This document shows positions 1,126 to 22,800 of a stretch of 25,442 bases of DNA, piece by piece. Under the pieces are notes generated by a model. That model was not told the origin of the DNA, did no database searches, and saw nothing but the letters and a program-made list of their open reading frames with translations. A program made the position numbers and the translations under genes. Each line of letters starts with the position of its first letter. The stretch's first letter is position 1. This stretch comes from a virus, in the IMG/VR virus record IMGVR_UViG_3300020185_000238, positions 1 to 25,442 of that record; one strand, 5' to 3'.

Positions 1126-2436
1126 ATGTTTGGACTAATACTAACCGAGGAGCAGCGCATAGAAAAAGCTGTTGTCTCTATCATGGCGCACCCTAAGTGG
1201 TGTGCCTACGCAGGGATGTTGATGATGGGTAAACGCATTGTCAGCGATGATAACGAGCGTTATCCCACAGCGTGTACCAATGGACGTGACGAGTGGTACG
1301 GACGTAAGTTCGTTGCATCACTCACCGATGCCGAGTTGCGGTTTCTCATACTACATGAGGTGTGTCACAAGATGTTTAGGCATCTCATTACATGGGCTGC
1401 TATTCACAAGATCAACGCTAAGAAAGCTAACTTGGCGTGTGACTTCGTTATCAACGTGCTGTTGGTTGATGCCGATGATGGTGAGGGTTTCATCACCATG
1501 ACAGGTGCGCTGACCACAGGTTGTTTCAACGTCAAGTATCGTAACTGGGACAGTGGGCAGGTGTTCCACGATCTGCCCGATCCGATAAAGCGTGACCCCG
1601 AAGATGGTGACGGTGACGGTGGTATGGGGAAACCCATACGAGGCGATGGCGATGCTGACGATGATGATGCAGGCGGAAGCATTAAGAACGATCAACCATA
1701 TGACGGTACATACCCAGTAGATGCTGACCCGTCGTTTGACGATCACGATTGGGATGGGGCCGAGGACATGACCCCTGACGAGCAGCGTGATCTTGCGCGT
1801 GAAGTTGACGAGGCAGTTCGGTCTGGCGCGTTGGCTGCGGGTAAGATGGGTAACGGCGCAGATCGTAACATCACTGAATTGTTGCAGCCGCAGATTGACT
1901 ATACAGAATACATGGCAGAGTTTTTTACATCGCATGTGCGAGGTAAAGACTTCGGGACATTCAAGCGTCCTAACAAACGTTACCTGAGTGCTGGCGTATA
2001 CATGCCAAGTCTCATGTCTAACGCTATCGGGCCTGTGTGTCTTGCTATGGATATGTCTGGTTCTATCGGACAGCGTGAACAGTCTGTCATGTTGACCGAG
2101 TGTGGTCATATACTTTCAACGCTCAAGCCAGAATGTGTGCATGTACTGTATTGGGACACTACTGTTGTTCGTGCGGAGAAGTACGAGCGTGACGAGTTGG
2201 ACATGATGATAAAATCTACCAAGCCCGCAGGAGGCGGTGGTACAGATGTTAGGTGTGTACCAGCGTATCTTAAAGAGCATCGTATCAAACCAGAAGCAAC
2301 CGTTATTCTTACTGACGGTCACTTGTGGGGTGGTTGCGGTGAGTGGGGTCATCCTACCTTGTGGGTAACGCTCGACCACGCAGGTTGGGAAGCCGATGTT
2401 GGCAAGACCGTACACGTAAGAGCGTGTGATATGTAA
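1126..2436 (+). CDS. Metallopeptidase-like plus VWA domain protein (DUF2201-like)
   Basis: This 436-aa protein has two domains. The N-terminal part carries HEVCH (H77, E78, H81), with D106 in LACDFVINVLL as a likely third ligand, matching the putative metallopeptidase-like half of the DUF2201 family. An acidic low-complexity linker (roughly residues 150-200, rich in D, G and E) joins it to a VWA-like domain with a MIDAS site: D309, S311 and S313 in DMSGS, T373 in GGGGTD, and D397 in TDG. VWA proteins of this type partner with MoxR AAA+ ATPases, and one lies just upstream, separated by the small CxxC gene. Whether the HExxH site is active is unknown. The linker contains one copy of the GAAA hairpin repeat, read as MGKPIR (about residues 167-172). 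The start is the ATG at 1126 with GGAG about 14 bases upstream. Confidence 0.85.
   Translation: MFGLILTEEQRIEKAVVSIMAHPKWCAYAGMLMMGKRIVSDDNERYPTACTNGRDEWYGRKFVASLTDAELRFLILHEVCHKMFRHLITWAAIHKINAKKANLACDFVINVLLVDADDGEGFITMTGALTTGCFNVKYRNWDSGQVFHDLPDPIKRDPEDGDGDGGMGKPIRGDGDADDDDAGGSIKNDQPYDGTYPVDADPSFDDHDWDGAEDMTPDEQRDLAREVDEAVRSGALAAGKMGNGADRNITELLQPQIDYTEYMAEFFTSHVRGKDFGTFKRPNKRYLSAGVYMPSLMSNAIGPVCLAMDMSGSIGQREQSVMLTECGHILSTLKPECVHVLYWDTTVVRAEKYERDELDMMIKSTKPAGGGGTDVRCVPAYLKEHRIKPEATVILTDGHLWGGCGEWGHPTLWVTLDHAGWEADVGKTVHVRACDM
1622..1639 (+). repeat. GAAA-loop palindrome, copy 1 (inside the VWA gene)
   Basis: A perfect 7-bp palindrome, GTATGGG-GAAA-CCCATAC, lies within the acidic linker of the VWA gene and is translated there as part of GMGKPIR. 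The same 18 bases recur exactly at 2445, 3751 and 4942. No stem extension beyond 7 bp is seen here. It lies in low-complexity linker coding sequence, where an inserted in-frame element would be tolerated. Confidence 0.9.
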
Positions 2437-2442
2437 TCAACA

Positions 2443-2464
2443 GTGTATGGGGAAACCCATACAC
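2443..2464 (+). repeat. GAAA-loop hairpin, copy 2 (5' leader)
   Basis: The core palindrome at 2445-2462 is extended by GT on the left and AC on the right, giving a 9-bp perfect stem closed by a GAAA (GNRA) tetraloop. It lies between the VWA stop (2436) and the start of the next gene (2483), just upstream of AAGGAGAACT. An RNA hairpin in the leader is the simplest reading. It could protect or process the mRNA or modulate access to the ribosome site. Confidence 0.9.
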
Positions 2465-2482
2465 AAACTAAGGAGAACTGAA

Positions 2483-2740
2483 ATGTACGATAAGACAGAG
2501 GAAGCGGAGTTCACCGCTGCGTGGGACAGGTACAAGCAACGGTTCAACCCGTTCATCGCTTGCCCCGAGTGCGAAGGCTCTGACCACGTAGGTCAAGTGG
2601 AACATGAGAAGTACGAACTAATGAGTAGCGGTATCTACGAACCTGTTGGTGTGTGGAAAGACTGTGATAATTGTAATGGCTTGGGGGAGATACAGGCCGA
2701 TGAGAATATGGAGACCAAGCATGGCACTAATATATACTAA
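2483..2740 (+). CDS. Small CxxC zinc-finger-like protein (85 aa)
   Basis: The function is not recognised. The protein has CPECEG near its N-terminal third and CDNCNG near residues 56-61, both of the CxxCxG form seen in DnaJ cysteine-rich domains, so one four-Cys zinc site is likely. The rest is acidic and Tyr/Glu rich. The ATG at 2483 is chosen because AAGGAG lies directly upstream at normal spacing. An earlier in-frame ATG at 2447 is inside the hairpin repeat and has no ribosome site. This is the second small CxxC protein beside the MoxR/VWA pair. The 3' end overlaps the next gene by 20 bases. Confidence 0.75.
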   Translation: MYDKTEEAEFTAAWDRYKQRFNPFIACPECEGSDHVGQVEHEKYELMSSGIYEPVGVWKDCDNCNGLGEIQADENMETKHGTNIY

Positions 2741-3743
2741 CCACTTATGTTTCGCAGACGTGGAAACACAATACAACACTACCCCTGTGATACGCAGTAG
2801 GTTCGGTAAGGATAACGACATACGCCCTATCGGTGACAGACGCCGCAAGCATGAGCGTATCCACAAGATCAATGGCAACTGCTACGCAATCATGCAGGGG
2901 TATGGGTATGGTGATCCTGTGTTCCAACCTTGGTACGGGGGTGGCAAGGTAAAACCTTCAGTCAATTCTACTGAACAGTTTGCGGCGTTAGTGTGGCGCA
3001 GACACAGGGATGGTACTGAAACAGTTAAGGTCGCTAACGGCTCTGGCCCACATGGGCATCACAATTCTATATACGATACGCTTACTCGTCACCTGCCGTA
3101 CCCACTACGGTTCGTCAACAAGAATGGTAAGCACTTTGTTCGTATTGGTGGTGAGGACTACTACCTAGCTAAACGTACTAGCGTCCCCGCGCCCATCAAG
3201 AAACATTGGGATGCCTACTACCGCCGAGCAAATGCACAGAGCGTGTATATACGAGAACGCCAAGGGTGGATGACCGCCAAGGACGATGGTGCTGCGTTGG
3301 TGTTCCGTAGGATCGGGGAAGAACAATGGGTGCATGACAGTGGTGGTTTACCGTTGCCCCCTGCGCCGAGAGTGAACAAGGAACTGAAAGACAAATACAA
3401 AACACACATGAACGAGTTCTATGATTGGGGCATCACTATGACCCCTCTTCTTCCACTAGAGACAGGCACATACAACTACGGTGAACGAACCAAGCTAGCT
3501 AAATACAAACAAGAACATTACGGCAATTCTAAGAGACGTGCGTTATGGTTGCGTGATGTGTTGAAAGACCCTGAGCATCCTATGCGTGTGTCAGCGTGGG
3601 TCGATTTCACTACGTCGTTTATAGGGAACAGTGGGTGGTATGAACGAGCCACTATCAAGGAACATATGCAGGAAGGGAATATGACTGAAGTAAGAAGTAA
3701 GTTCAATTCGTGGGTCAACAAGACCGCGAAGTTTATGAAATGA
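2721..3743 (+). CDS. Hypothetical phage protein (340 aa)
   Basis: I do not recognise a family. The ATG at 2721 (MALIYTNHLCF) is chosen because GGAG at 2710-2713 is seven bases upstream; an ATG further upstream at 2646 lies deep inside the preceding gene. The protein is soluble-looking and rich in Tyr, Trp, Arg and Lys. Notable stretches are GYGYGDPVFQPWYGGG near residue 60, GRTRE-type basic segments, and a basic C-terminus. No signal peptide, membrane helix or clear catalytic motif is visible. It overlaps the upstream CxxC gene by 20 bases and is followed by a hairpin leader, so it belongs to the same early block. Confidence 0.7.
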   Translation: MALIYTNHLCFADVETQYNTTPVIRSRFGKDNDIRPIGDRRRKHERIHKINGNCYAIMQGYGYGDPVFQPWYGGGKVKPSVNSTEQFAALVWRRHRDGTETVKVANGSGPHGHHNSIYDTLTRHLPYPLRFVNKNGKHFVRIGGEDYYLAKRTSVPAPIKKHWDAYYRRANAQSVYIRERQGWMTAKDDGAALVFRRIGEEQWVHDSGGLPLPPAPRVNKELKDKYKTHMNEFYDWGITMTPLLPLETGTYNYGERTKLAKYKQEHYGNSKRRALWLRDVLKDPEHPMRVSAWVDFTTSFIGNSGWYERATIKEHMQEGNMTEVRSKFNSWVNKTAKFMK

Positions 3744-3750
3744 TAAAACT

Positions 3751-3768
3751 GTATGGGGAAACCCATAC
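3751..3768 (+). repeat. GAAA-loop hairpin, copy 3 (5' leader)
   Basis: An exact copy of the 18-base GTATGGG-GAAA-CCCATAC palindrome, with a possible extra T-G wobble pair at 3750/3769. It sits between the stop at 3743 and the start at 3786, directly before AAAAGGAGAACTAAA. The hairpin-plus-ribosome-site block closely matches the one at 2443-2485. Confidence 0.9.
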
Positions 3769-3785
3769 GCAAAAGGAGAACTAAA

Positions 3786-4649
3786 ATGGAAGTATCGACA
3801 GTTAAAGAAGCTACAAGTCACGCGCAAATGCACAACATAAAATTGCAGGGACATATTGTGCCTTGGATTGCAGAGTTAGAGAATGCTTTGCCGATCAGCA
3901 CACTTGCGCGTAGTGGTAACAGTGCATGGGTATACTACGATAATGACCCATATTGCTGTGCTTGGGTTGGCTATGGTGATTTTCGTAGGGGTGGTAAGGG
4001 TACTAGCACATACACAGTTTGTAGTCGCTTGATCGCTAATTGTAAGTACAGCGACTACAACCCACAGTACCATATGTCCATGACAACCAAGCTAGAGACA
4101 GCGGTGAAGAACGCCAAGCGTTACATCTCACCGCTTAACGTGGCAGACATGGCAGCTATGTCATCGAAGAATGCGGCTAGATCGTTTCGTGATGTGAGCA
4201 GTAATGCCAACCATGAGATGCGTAAGATGGGTAATAGGTTGTTTCAGCATGACGGTATCTCTAGCAACTATTCGCCTATGGAGACCGAGTTGAAGAACCT
4301 TCTGACATTGGGGCATGAGTTTGTAGACAAGGAGTTGCAAGCAGGGTTGGTAGATTTCTTTGCCCAGAAGGATGAAACCAAAACGCTTGATGCTCGATCG
4401 GATAACGGTGTGTTCATATACACTACTGTACGTAGGGGTGAACAACAGTGCGCCGTGCTGCAGGTCGATGGTCTGTCCAACTACACCCCTGACGTACACC
4501 CACAAAGTTGTGTTCAGTGGTACACACCACAAACGCTGCCCGAAGATATGATGGGTAAGTTTTCTATGTTGCAGCTTGTGGATGATTGTCACTATGTTGA
4601 TGGGGTGGGGTACAGAGTTTCTGATCGTATGTGCTTCCTACTTACTTGA
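3786..4649 (+). CDS. Hypothetical phage protein with a repeated C-terminal module (287 aa)
   Basis: No named family is recognised. The start is the ATG at 3786, eight bases after AGGAGA. An in-frame ATG at 3753 lies inside the hairpin repeat and lacks a ribosome site. The N-terminal half contains WVYYDNDPYCCAWVGYGDF and a charged helical middle. The last 40 or so residues, LPEDMMGKFSMLQLVDD followed by YVDGVGYRVSD, align well with the end of the next gene (LPDWFQGRLAVLSLLEND, YLEGVGHKAND). That suggests a shared module duplicated in tandem. The gene overlaps the next one. Confidence 0.7.
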   Translation: MEVSTVKEATSHAQMHNIKLQGHIVPWIAELENALPISTLARSGNSAWVYYDNDPYCCAWVGYGDFRRGGKGTSTYTVCSRLIANCKYSDYNPQYHMSMTTKLETAVKNAKRYISPLNVADMAAMSSKNAARSFRDVSSNANHEMRKMGNRLFQHDGISSNYSPMETELKNLLTLGHEFVDKELQAGLVDFFAQKDETKTLDARSDNGVFIYTTVRRGEQQCAVLQVDGLSNYTPDVHPQSCVQWYTPQTLPEDMMGKFSMLQLVDDCHYVDGVGYRVSDRMCFLLT

Positions 4650-4927
4650 GCATAAGTGACGTTTTGTACGCGGCTGACGTTTGTTACCGCGTACAAACAG
4701 AGAAAGATACTGGCTGGGTAACGATAGTAAGTCTTGGGATTAAAAGACTTGACGCGATAGTAAAAGATACCTATATACCTTTTGAGGAGCTACCAGATTG
4801 GTTCCAAGGGAGGTTAGCGGTGTTATCCTTATTGGAGAACGATGCTTACTTAGAGGGTGTGGGTCACAAGGCTAATGACAATGAGTTCTATAGCACTTTC
4901 TGGGTAATCGAACCATCTAATCTTTAG
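4631..4927 (+). CDS. Hypothetical protein, paralogue of the preceding C-terminal module (98 aa)
   Basis: This small protein resembles the C-terminal part of the preceding gene product: LPDWFQGRLAVLSLLEND and YLEGVGHK match LPEDMMGKFSMLQLVDD and YVDGVGYR. It is therefore a stand-alone copy of that module, of unknown function. There is no ATG near the start. The options are GTG at 4631 or TTG at 4646, which overlaps the upstream stop (TTGA). Neither has a clear ribosome site, so translation is probably coupled to the upstream gene. Confidence 0.6.
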   Translation: MLPTYLSISDVLYAADVCYRVQTEKDTGWVTIVSLGIKRLDAIVKDTYIPFEELPDWFQGRLAVLSLLENDAYLEGVGHKANDNEFYSTFWVIEPSNL

Positions 4928-4938
4928 AAAAACGCAGG

Positions 4939-4962
4939 GCTGTATGGGGAAACCCATACGGC
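4939..4962 (+). repeat. GAAA-loop hairpin, copy 4 (intergenic)
   Basis: The 18-base core lies at 4942-4959 and is extended outward by G-C and C-G pairs and one T-G wobble to a stem of about 10 bp. It falls in the 69-base gap between the stop at 4927 and the VRR-NUC start at 4997. The extended pairs differ from those of copy 2, which supports selection on the paired structure. A short T-run follows (TTT, later TTTTT at 4975-4979), so weak terminator activity is possible. Confidence 0.9.
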
Positions 4963-4996
4963 TTTGGATGCCAGTTTTTACAGGGGGGTTTGACGT

Positions 4997-5305
4997 ATGG
5001 CTATGACGCCAGAAGCAAAAGTTAAGAAGCAGGTGACACGGCAGCTAGACGCAATAGGTGCGTACTACTTCTACCCTGTCACAGGCGGGTACGGTAAAAG
5101 TGGTGTGCCTGATATTGTAGGTTGCTACAAAGGATTGTTCTTTGGCATTGAGTGTAAAGCGGGTAAGAATAGACCCACGCCTCTGCAAGCTAAAAATTTA
5201 AAAGACATATGCAAAGCGGGTGGCCTAGATATAGTTGTCAATGAGGATAACATGAGTAGTGTTAGTCAGTCACTAACAGCATGGGCAGCAATATCAGATG
5301 ACTAA
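4997..5305 (+). CDS. VRR-NUC domain nuclease (102 aa)
   Basis: This is a minimal VRR-NUC (PD-(D/E)XK superfamily) nuclease. The catalytic core is visible as GVPDIV (D39) and GIECK (E52, K54), preceded by a helix carrying TRQLDAIGAYYFYPVTGG. Stand-alone phage VRR-NUC proteins of about 100 aa are common near replication genes and are presumed structure-specific DNA nucleases acting on branched or forked DNA. The start is the ATG at 4997, eight bases after an AGGGGGG run; the ATG at 5003 is an alternative. Confidence 0.88.
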   Translation: MAMTPEAKVKKQVTRQLDAIGAYYFYPVTGGYGKSGVPDIVGCYKGLFFGIECKAGKNRPTPLQAKNLKDICKAGGLDIVVNEDNMSSVSQSLTAWAAISDD

Positions 5306-19800: not shown

Positions 19801-22800
19801 CTTTGCTTGTTAATCACCTTGTTTAGACGCATTCCCGCATCATTGTCGTGGTTGCGCTTCAACGTGTCGGCAAGAATATTTAACGGGGAGACGCCGTAAA
19901 AGAAACTTTTAGCGCCTGTGTATGGCGCTGAGTTTTTAGCGCGGTCCTGCATGTCTCTTAGCTCTTCGCGTGTAGTAGGTTTCACGGCGTCTGTAGCCTC
20001 TTTAGTGGCGTCTACTGCCCCCTCGGGTGTACTAGCTGTAAGATACATAGCGGGAGCGGCACGGGTGCTTAATTGCGGTGCTAAGATATAGTCTAGTAGC
20101 AGATCAGTTCGGTCAAACACTGACTCGGGTGCCCTGCCCATTAAGTTGCGGAACACACGGCGTACCGCTTCTTTAAAATTTTGCCAAGCTGTAGGAAATT
20201 TTAAACCTGACATAGGTATACCCGCTAACTTAACTTGGAAGTCGGGGTTACTAAACGCTTCTGCGATAAATTCATCTATGCTTCGTGTCGCATAGTCACT
20301 ACCTTCGGGCATTTGAGCTTTAACAGCTTCGTATATACGTGTGAGCTGCCGTACTTCTGGTAGATTTTTCCTAGCTAATTGTGCGGCAGTTCCTGCATGT
20401 AGTACCTCATGCAGTATGGTGTGAGCGTTCATGCCTAAATTACTATCTATAGCGATAGTGTTGGTAGCAGGGTAAAACACACCTGCAGCAACGTTACCCT
20501 GCGGGTCTTTAAGTCCACCAGATACCAGTTGTATCTTTGTATCACCTGTATAACCCGCTAATTTATTTGCTACGGAACGTAGAGCCTTCGATGGACTAAT
20601 GTTTGCGATAGCTATTAACGCACCGGATAAATCTCCTGCGGCTAATGTGTTACGTATACTTGGGGGTAGTGGTACACTCTGTGCATACAACTCACTAGCC
20701 AGTAAGTACCTACTATCGTAGTCATCATCACGACTAAGGGTTTCCGACCTACGTTCAAATTGGGCTTCAAGTTGTGACTGTGACAGTCCCAGCCCTATAC
20801 TATCTTGGTTAATATTTTCATCTAAAAGAATATCGGCTGATACTTCTGCGACATTAGCTTCTGATAGTAAATCAGCGTCCGCTAATAAGGGCGCATCCTT
20901 TAGGTACGCTTCTTCTGTCGAATTTAACTTGATTTCGGCTAAGTTTGCTTGATCCTGATCGAATTGGTTAGGCTGTCCTTGTGATGCAGCGGCTGCGGCC
21001 TTGTTCTTCTTTCTTATGTAGTTTGCATAGTCAGCAGCCAACGCTTTCATACGCGCTTTTTTATCTGCTTCCTGCGCTCTGTCGTAACCGCCTTCGCTAC
21101 GCATACGTTCAATACGTTCTGCGCGTTGCCGTGCATATGCTACCGCTCTAGCTTCGGCTAATACAGCAGCGTCCTGTCCCTCTGGTGAGTTTTCAAAACG
21201 TTGCTGCGCTTCTTCTGCCGCCGACATTTCTCTTAGACGTTTATCCTCGTCCCTGCGACCTTTTTGGAGTTCACTCTTTCTCTCCCTACGTAACTGTATC
21301 TGAGCATCTCGTTCCGCAGGGGTGAGGGTGTGGACCGCCATATCTAGTTGTTCGGCTATTACATCAGACGCAAAGTTGTTCACGTCATCCGACATATTGC
21401 TTTCCATCCACTGTAACGCCTGCAGTGCTTTTTCTTGCGTCTCGTTACTGTAAAATTCATACGCGGCGTCTGATACTTCTGCGGCTTCTTCAAATATGGT
21501 ATCTCCGTACACAAAGCCATCTTCGGGGTTTAGTGCGGACGCCATAGCGGGTGTGCCTTCGGGAAACTTTGTAACCTTTGAGGTTCGTTTCTGTATCTTA
21601 GGGTTTTTAGGTGAGGACGCAGGAGCATACAGCACCGACACGACTGCTGCTTCTTCTATCGCGTCTACAGGACGTAGAAAGTTTTTAAAGAATGCTCGCG
21701 CAGCAAAGGCATTCGGGTCTTTCATCTTCTTAGCCGCGTCATCTGTCATATCTAACAAGTTCAATATGCGTTTTTTGTCTTCTAAATCGGTTATATCAGG
21801 TTGCTGGTTTGCGTCCGATATTGCGCCTTGCTGTAGTAGGATACTTCTAGCCGCCTCACCTTGTTTAGTGTTTCGTGTGAGAAACAGTTCACCTATCTTG
21901 TTGAGTAATAGGTTGCCTTGTAGCGACTCTGCTTCCGCTGCTTCTATTTCGCGGGTCAGCATGGCCTTTTGCTGTGCTGGTGGCAGTTCACTTATGGCCT
22001 CTAGTACTTCTGTCCTAACTTTAACGGGGGCCTTTTCTGCTGTGTAGTTTAACCCACTTGTGTCTGATATTTTTGGTCCAGCTACAGGGTTAAGAGCCTT
22101 ATCGTAACTTTGCACGAACTCACTACCCGTTGCACCTGCATCGGGAAATGCTTGATCCGTAGCGTCACCTACAAACTCTCCACTTTCATCTCTTAAATTT
22201 TTGGTCCCAACAGGCAGTTGTGCGCCCTGTTCGGGTTCTGCAACAGGTTCAACTTCGGGTTCTGTAACAGGTTCAACTTCGGGTTCTGCAACAGGTTCAA
22301 CTTCGGGTTCTGCAACAGGTTCAACTTCGGGTTCTGTAACAGGTTTAACGCCTGTGCTACCATCTAGTTCTGTTGTAGAAGTTATAGTGTCTGGAACTAT
22401 TGGCGCACTATCAGGTGTACTTTCTACAGTTATAGGTATGTATTTACGTCTGCCTTTTTTATCGGCAGGGCCAACTATAGGGTTTGTTTCAGCAGCAAGA
22501 AGACTAATTAATTTTGCTGCTCGTGCCCCAGAAATTTTTAAATCACGTTGTAAGGCACTAACTGAAGCTACCTTACGTTCAGTTACTGATTTTCTAGCAT
22601 CTTCAAGTAAAGCAGCGTCATCCACTTTAGATTTTACTGTAGGCTCAGTACTTTTAAACTGTTGTAATGTTTGATTACCCCCAAGCGTTGATCCTCCATA
22701 TCTGTCACCAACTTCTGTAGGAGTGTCTTGTAATGTTTGACTACCACCAAGCCCCGCTATAAATGCGTCTACATTATCCCCATCTACATCTGAAGCTGAT

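Follow-up and report, generated by a model that had tools for sequence, protein, structure and literature searches.

The repressor of the temperate actinophage phiC31 has about 18 palindromic operators, conserved inverted repeats that lie across the phage genome. In L5, a cluster A mycobacteriophage, many near-identical short stoperators are found in short gaps and genes downstream of promoters and are bound by a small phage repressor, and between cluster A phages stoperator sequence and repressor co-diverge (PMC6550527, PMC9283540). The window described here, a stretch of 25,442 bases that is a fragment of a phage of ~60 kb, carries palindromes that recall both systems. As in L5, many near-identical short sites occur per phage genome, and their sequence co-diverges with a phage protein, here called the hub protein, that would bind DNA; as in phiC31, multiple palindromic putative operators are spread across a phage genome. 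The L5 sites, however, are asymmetric 13-bp sequences that a monomer binds and that point in the direction of transcription, whereas those found here are palindromes of 13–18 bp without polarity, with spacers in both orientations. L5 phages are temperate, whereas no tyrosine integrase (PF00589) was found here in 14 records, although the positive control was found in all 14 genomes (serine integrases lay outside the search), and no similarity was detected between the L5 repressor and the hub proteins. The palindromes are probably double-stranded DNA operators of a predicted phage-encoded early regulator, stoperator-like and probably dimeric.

Palindromes of the window and its close relatives

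The 18-mer GTATGGG-GAAA-CCCATAC (GTATGGGGAAACCCATAC) is present in four exact copies on the + strand of the window, compared with a chance expectation of 0.04, and no further copy was found at up to 3 mismatches in the 25,442 bases. The four identical palindromes that a sequence-only reading had placed at 1622, 2445, 3751 and 4942 are thus exact matches, and three of them do lie in gaps. Copy 1 (1622–1639) is coding and falls within the GMGKPIRG linker of a VWA-like metallopeptidase ORF (DUF2201_N and DUF2201; 1126–2436, + strand); the homologous linker of L046, L047, L048 and L052 carries GTAGTT or GTAGTG palindromes. Copies 2 and 3 each lie in the gap that separates a stop codon from the following Shine-Dalgarno (SD) sequence. 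Copy 2 (2445–2462) follows the VWA stop codon (2436) and precedes the SD of an ORF starting at 2483, and in relatives its left flank is conserved and the downstream gene differs. Copy 3 (3751–3768) is found in the leader of a 287-aa ORF without family match (3786–4649, + strand), and the same position in relatives holds a GAAA spacer, a TTTC spacer or the palindrome GTTAGTG-AAC-CACTAAC. Copy 4 (4942–4959) lies in the leader of a gene for a VRR-NUC, Holliday-junction-resolvase-like nuclease (4997–5305, + strand), and its spacer is inverted in L029, L146, L147 and L153. An imperfect GTTAGTG-type palindrome, GTTAGTCAGTCACTAAC (5261–5277), is located inside the VRR-NUC ORF, at the same place as in the relative G002, and is possibly the vestige of another operator type. 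The sequence-only reading had also described flanks that extend the stem, and GT/AC indeed lengthens copy 2; copies 3 and 4 each have an adjacent T-G step, to which copy 4 adds more pairs. The term compensatory does not apply to these pairs, as the four copies are separate sites whose positions are not homologous, and two Watson-Crick pairs directly beside the core are found at copy 2 alone.

Several other features of the window were recorded. The gene after copy 2 (2463–2740) differs from that in L005, L008, L015 and L017 next to a constant left flank, as if cassettes had been exchanged at the palindrome. An AAA ATPase is split (33–323 and 245–859) by a one-base difference between the window (GTGGACAACATCC) and G001 (GTGGACAAACATCC) that may be genuine or an artefact of assembly. 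Tandem repeats of 24 bp at 22230–22349 encode a PEVEPV repeat in a 2356-aa minus-strand ORF. An Rfam search of the window returned nothing, and ARAGORN found no tRNA. A CCAGTT element (4971–4976, + strand) follows copy 4; in all families, CCAGTT and a conserved downstream sequence (often CGGAGCAGC..GCG) occur 8–12 nt after many hub palindromes, for example in L115 (1637, 1752 and 1858) and in L045, L046, L048, L055, L066 and L086, and may be part of an origin, a promoter or a small RNA.

Scanning IMG/VR for the exact 18-mer gave 33 stretches. Contigs with near-identical genes hold 8–11 copies of the GTATGGG palindrome, which are restricted to 1.7–10.0 kb of G001 (59.1 kb) and 39.6–48.0 kb of G002 (59.3 kb), so that the close relatives have ~10 sites within an 8.3 kb early region of a 59 kb genome. 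The single exact copies in the unrelated contigs L001, L004, L006, L012–L014, L018, L020 and L030, several of them large phages, look like coincidental hairpins and were set aside. Among near-identical phages, GAAA and its reverse complement TTTC are found at one and the same site between almost invariant arms, with 7 GAAA and 5 TTTC alleles at copy 3, 10 and 4 at copy 4, and 5 and 4 in the DUF3150 leader; the spacer of this family prefers GAAN. Template switching at inverted repeats inverts spacers and homogenises arms (PMC8604942, PMC8794818), and both effects match copies 3 and 4. Template switching at the palindrome probably produced the inversion as a neutral side effect, and the inversion would in that sense be a matter of mutation here and not of function. 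A G-to-A change beside copy 4 was considered as a signature of such an event and gives no proof, since one allele has this change without the inversion.

The G002 genome (L120) has a few GTTAGTG sites alongside GTATGGG and is probably a recombinant. There, GTTAGTG-AAC-CACTAAC replaces GTATGGG-TTTC-CCCATAC in the ATPase leader and, as also in L148 and L150, in the leader of the 287-aa ORF, with flanks nearly unchanged; two operator types thus appear to circulate in one near-species.

Half-site and spacer length follow the hub protein type

More distant relatives, gathered through the VWA protein, carry other repeated palindromes, namely GTTAGTG-N3, GTTAGGG-N4/N3, GTAGTG-N3, GTAGTT-N3, TTTATGG-N4, CTAACA-N1, CTAACA-N2, CTGTAA-N2, TCTGACA-N2 and TTAGGG-N6, a single locus holding as many as 18 exact copies, versus 1–2 in shuffles. 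The motif search in related phage genomes that the sequence-only reading had proposed yielded GTATGGG copies in the close relatives and different palindrome families at orthologous places further out. There are ~8–18 near-identical short sites per early region in each phage, and in those metagenomic genomes that were checked over their full length they fall within one early stretch of ~8–14 kb. By DNA polymerase, the closest relatives in culture are the Rhizobium phage RHph_TM3_14A (MN988472) and its sisters, with 34% identity and a syntenic replication region. RHph_TM3_14A resembles the phages described here in its syntenic AAA-VWA-PolA-RecB-VRR-NUC-SNF2-primase genome and in having 41 copies of GTTACCTYNNRAGGTAAC genome-wide (at most 2 mismatches of 14), with 38 copies in the first 50 kb compared with 0.07 expected. 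It differs in that the sites, which are unannotated, have another half-site and occur genome-wide and not only in the early region; its candidate regulator is a positional guess, chosen by location alone and not by homology. No repeated palindrome was found in the 50 kb checked of KPP25 and Rollin, two other DNA polymerase relatives.

In relatives, the first gene of the early region is the hub gene, encoding a product of 170–240 aa, and the contig of the window begins ~4 kb downstream of the corresponding place. For the hub proteins, Pfam and PHROG returned no match of note, and PDB and BFVD none, fold searches included. One hub model (pLDDT 74.7) shows two helices paired much as in a helix-turn-helix, the second of which contains the NPSTVWARVRKYA segment, and the protein is probably a dimer that binds the palindromes via the helix around the YWQ motif. 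Among 84,980 bacterial and archaeal genomes, none has a hub relative with the YWQQQIG-type pattern; together with the absence of a PF00589 integrase, this leaves a function in lysogeny unsupported. An initial regulator candidate, a Myb/GcrA-like helix-turn-helix gene (L115, 3731–4228), was discarded, as it is absent between the DUF3150-like gene and the ATPase in the operator-bearing G007. L083 has two hub paralogues in one early region (1189–1764 and 2448–2939).

A concerted change of site type was observed in sibling phages. L046 and L047/L048 share 91–99% identity around the sites, yet six sites are GTAGTT-N3-AACTAC in L046 and GTAGTG-N3-CACTAC at the orthologous places of L047/L048, including one in the VWA coding sequence; one coding site, common to the siblings, is not switched in L046. 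Within 6.9 kb of L046 no gene-length stretch other than the hub gene fails to align with L048, and the two hub proteins belong to different, remotely homologous subfamilies (hhalign 94.5%, E 7.5e-8).

The correspondence extends to single residues. As the combined hub alignment was too diverse for scanning, subset A4 was used, which led to 80 further loci. Across 82 hub loci, whether the half-site has G or T can be told without exception from the residue after YWQQQI[G/N], serine occurring with GTTAGGG (19 of 19) and alanine or threonine with GTTAGTG (63 of 63), and this column is the sole error-free splitter among those covered in all loci. On the hub tree L217 falls inside the GTTAGTG clade with starred support, yet it carries both changes, as judged from a single site beside the hub gene where the contig ends; its position implies at least two independent switches. 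Similarly, in the CTAACA superfamily an NPS-type helix goes with spacer 1 and a YW[QM]RVK helix with spacer 2 in all 23 rows, some of which represent the same or near-identical contigs, and an iterated search of this superfamily also recruited a GTTAGGG-type hub protein (E 7e-4). The serine/alanine rule fails in the hub subfamily of the window, where the aligned residue is S or K and the sites are constantly GTATGGG. At the level of sequence it is clear that half-site and spacer length vary in step with the type of hub protein, including in the siblings that changed in concert.

Site placement and probable mode of regulation

Based on crude gene calls, 76% of 464 distinct sites are not wholly coding, compared with 26% of random positions, and 42% are located at −60 to +50 of a predicted gene start, compared with 17%. 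In RHph_TM3_14A the right arm of the palindrome often serves as the SD as well (GAGGTAAC n ATG), and in the CTAACA phages the start codon often falls within the palindrome. When positions were measured from the end of the −10 element of 104 consensus sigma70-like promoters, the interval from −50 to +25 contained no palindrome centre, and ~70 site-promoter pairs fell at +25 to +150, sites being ~40–100 bp downstream of the promoters. The sites thus cluster in the early region, where genes begin and downstream of sigma70-like promoters, which they leave free. Another set of sites, for the most part orthologous, is located at −50 to −100 relative to promoters; in L079, the single case of this kind that was inspected in detail, a hairpin resembling a terminator stands between the site and the next promoter. 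From their location within transcribed regions, the sites are more likely to affect elongation than to occlude promoters or to serve classical upstream activation, which is why they are designated stoperator-like, and placement at +25 to +150 would be compatible with an elongation block as in L5. The regulator would be made from the first early gene, the hub gene, and its dimer would bind the palindromes and thereby influence transcription at positions inside the transcribed region. RNA polymerase would most likely be slowed or stopped by such a roadblock, so that the early genes are damped or shut off, and the hub protein may also regulate its own gene.

It is unlikely, if worth serious consideration, that the hub operators have a positive role instead, the hub protein being an activator or an antitermination or processivity factor loaded on RNA polymerase just past promoters. 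Promoter-proximal sites in the transcribed region would suit Q- or nut-like loading, and in the absence of a detected tyrosine integrase there would be no lysogeny to maintain; however, at least 10 sites are found per region, many of them distant from promoters and just before terminators, and symmetric sites lack the polarity of transcription.

An RNA hairpin in early mRNA leaders, as a translation regulator or a processing or stability element, is improbable, even though strong folds are predicted at all four copies of the window (z −2.6 to −4.3; 14 pairs and −26.3 kcal/mol for copy 4) and sites are found before or over SD sequences and start codons. In imperfect copies read on the mRNA strand, a selected stem should keep G-U and avoid A-C, but 12 G-U, 13 A-C and 18 other non-pairs were counted in RHph_TM3_14A and 5, 15 and 68, respectively, in the other families, where no compensatory change was found in the imperfect copies. 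Covariation thus gave neither an excess of G-U over A-C nor compensatory change on the transcribed strand. Spacer inversions, the perfect palindromes with spacers of 1–2 nt in related families, the sites in coding sequence and beside terminators, and a specificity that tracks a protein gene speak against the hairpin as well. A counter-example is the copy 4 site of L148 and L150, which has lost the DNA palindrome and retains an imperfect 11-pair stem with two G-U pairs. Within a family, spacer length is fixed and spacer sequence varies, which fits a dimer on duplex DNA. Compared in this way, the palindromes are almost certainly double-stranded DNA sites for a regulator protein and not RNA hairpins. 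From the sequence-only reading, a selected regulatory element tied to gene leaders is retained, whereas the selected RNA or single-stranded DNA hairpin is abandoned in view of the G-U counts, the spacer inversion and the spacers of 1–2 nt.

Selfish dispersed palindromes of the REP or RPE kind, copying themselves round the genome, would account for exact copies, insertion into coding linkers and both spacer orientations, yet are very improbable, as orthologous positions are kept while the sequence changes family-wide, and as the sites are linked to hub type and fixed in placement relative to promoters. N4-style hairpin promoters for a virion RNA polymerase, an idea of the sequence-only reading that foldable palindromes ahead of early genes would fit, are hardly credible, since a constant stem with a variable, invertible loop is the reverse of the varying stem and conserved 3-nt loop of N4, consensus sigma70-like promoters exist 40–100 bp upstream of the sites, and PF00940 (T7-type RNA polymerase) had no match in ten records, a weak point because the control was likewise silent.

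Recognition and possible immunity types

For the predicted double-stranded DNA operators and their regulators, a recognition code of protein-DNA pairs can apparently be read from sequence alone, because related phages swap the regulator and its docking sequence together. Hundreds of predicted operators, dozens of predicted cognate regulators and siblings that switch type represent a natural data set for protein-DNA recognition, in a family without name or structure, and RHph_TM3_14A offers a cultured entry point. The finding also raises the question of why an immunity-like circuit of many operators is maintained in phages in which no tyrosine integrase was detected. We suggest, with considerable reserve, that the hub proteins may be a new family of DNA-binding proteins through which virulent phages have exchangeable regulatory types: early genes of an incoming phage would be damped by a resident phage of matching type, and siblings would escape by switching regulator and operators jointly, which would amount to an immunity-type system without lysogeny.
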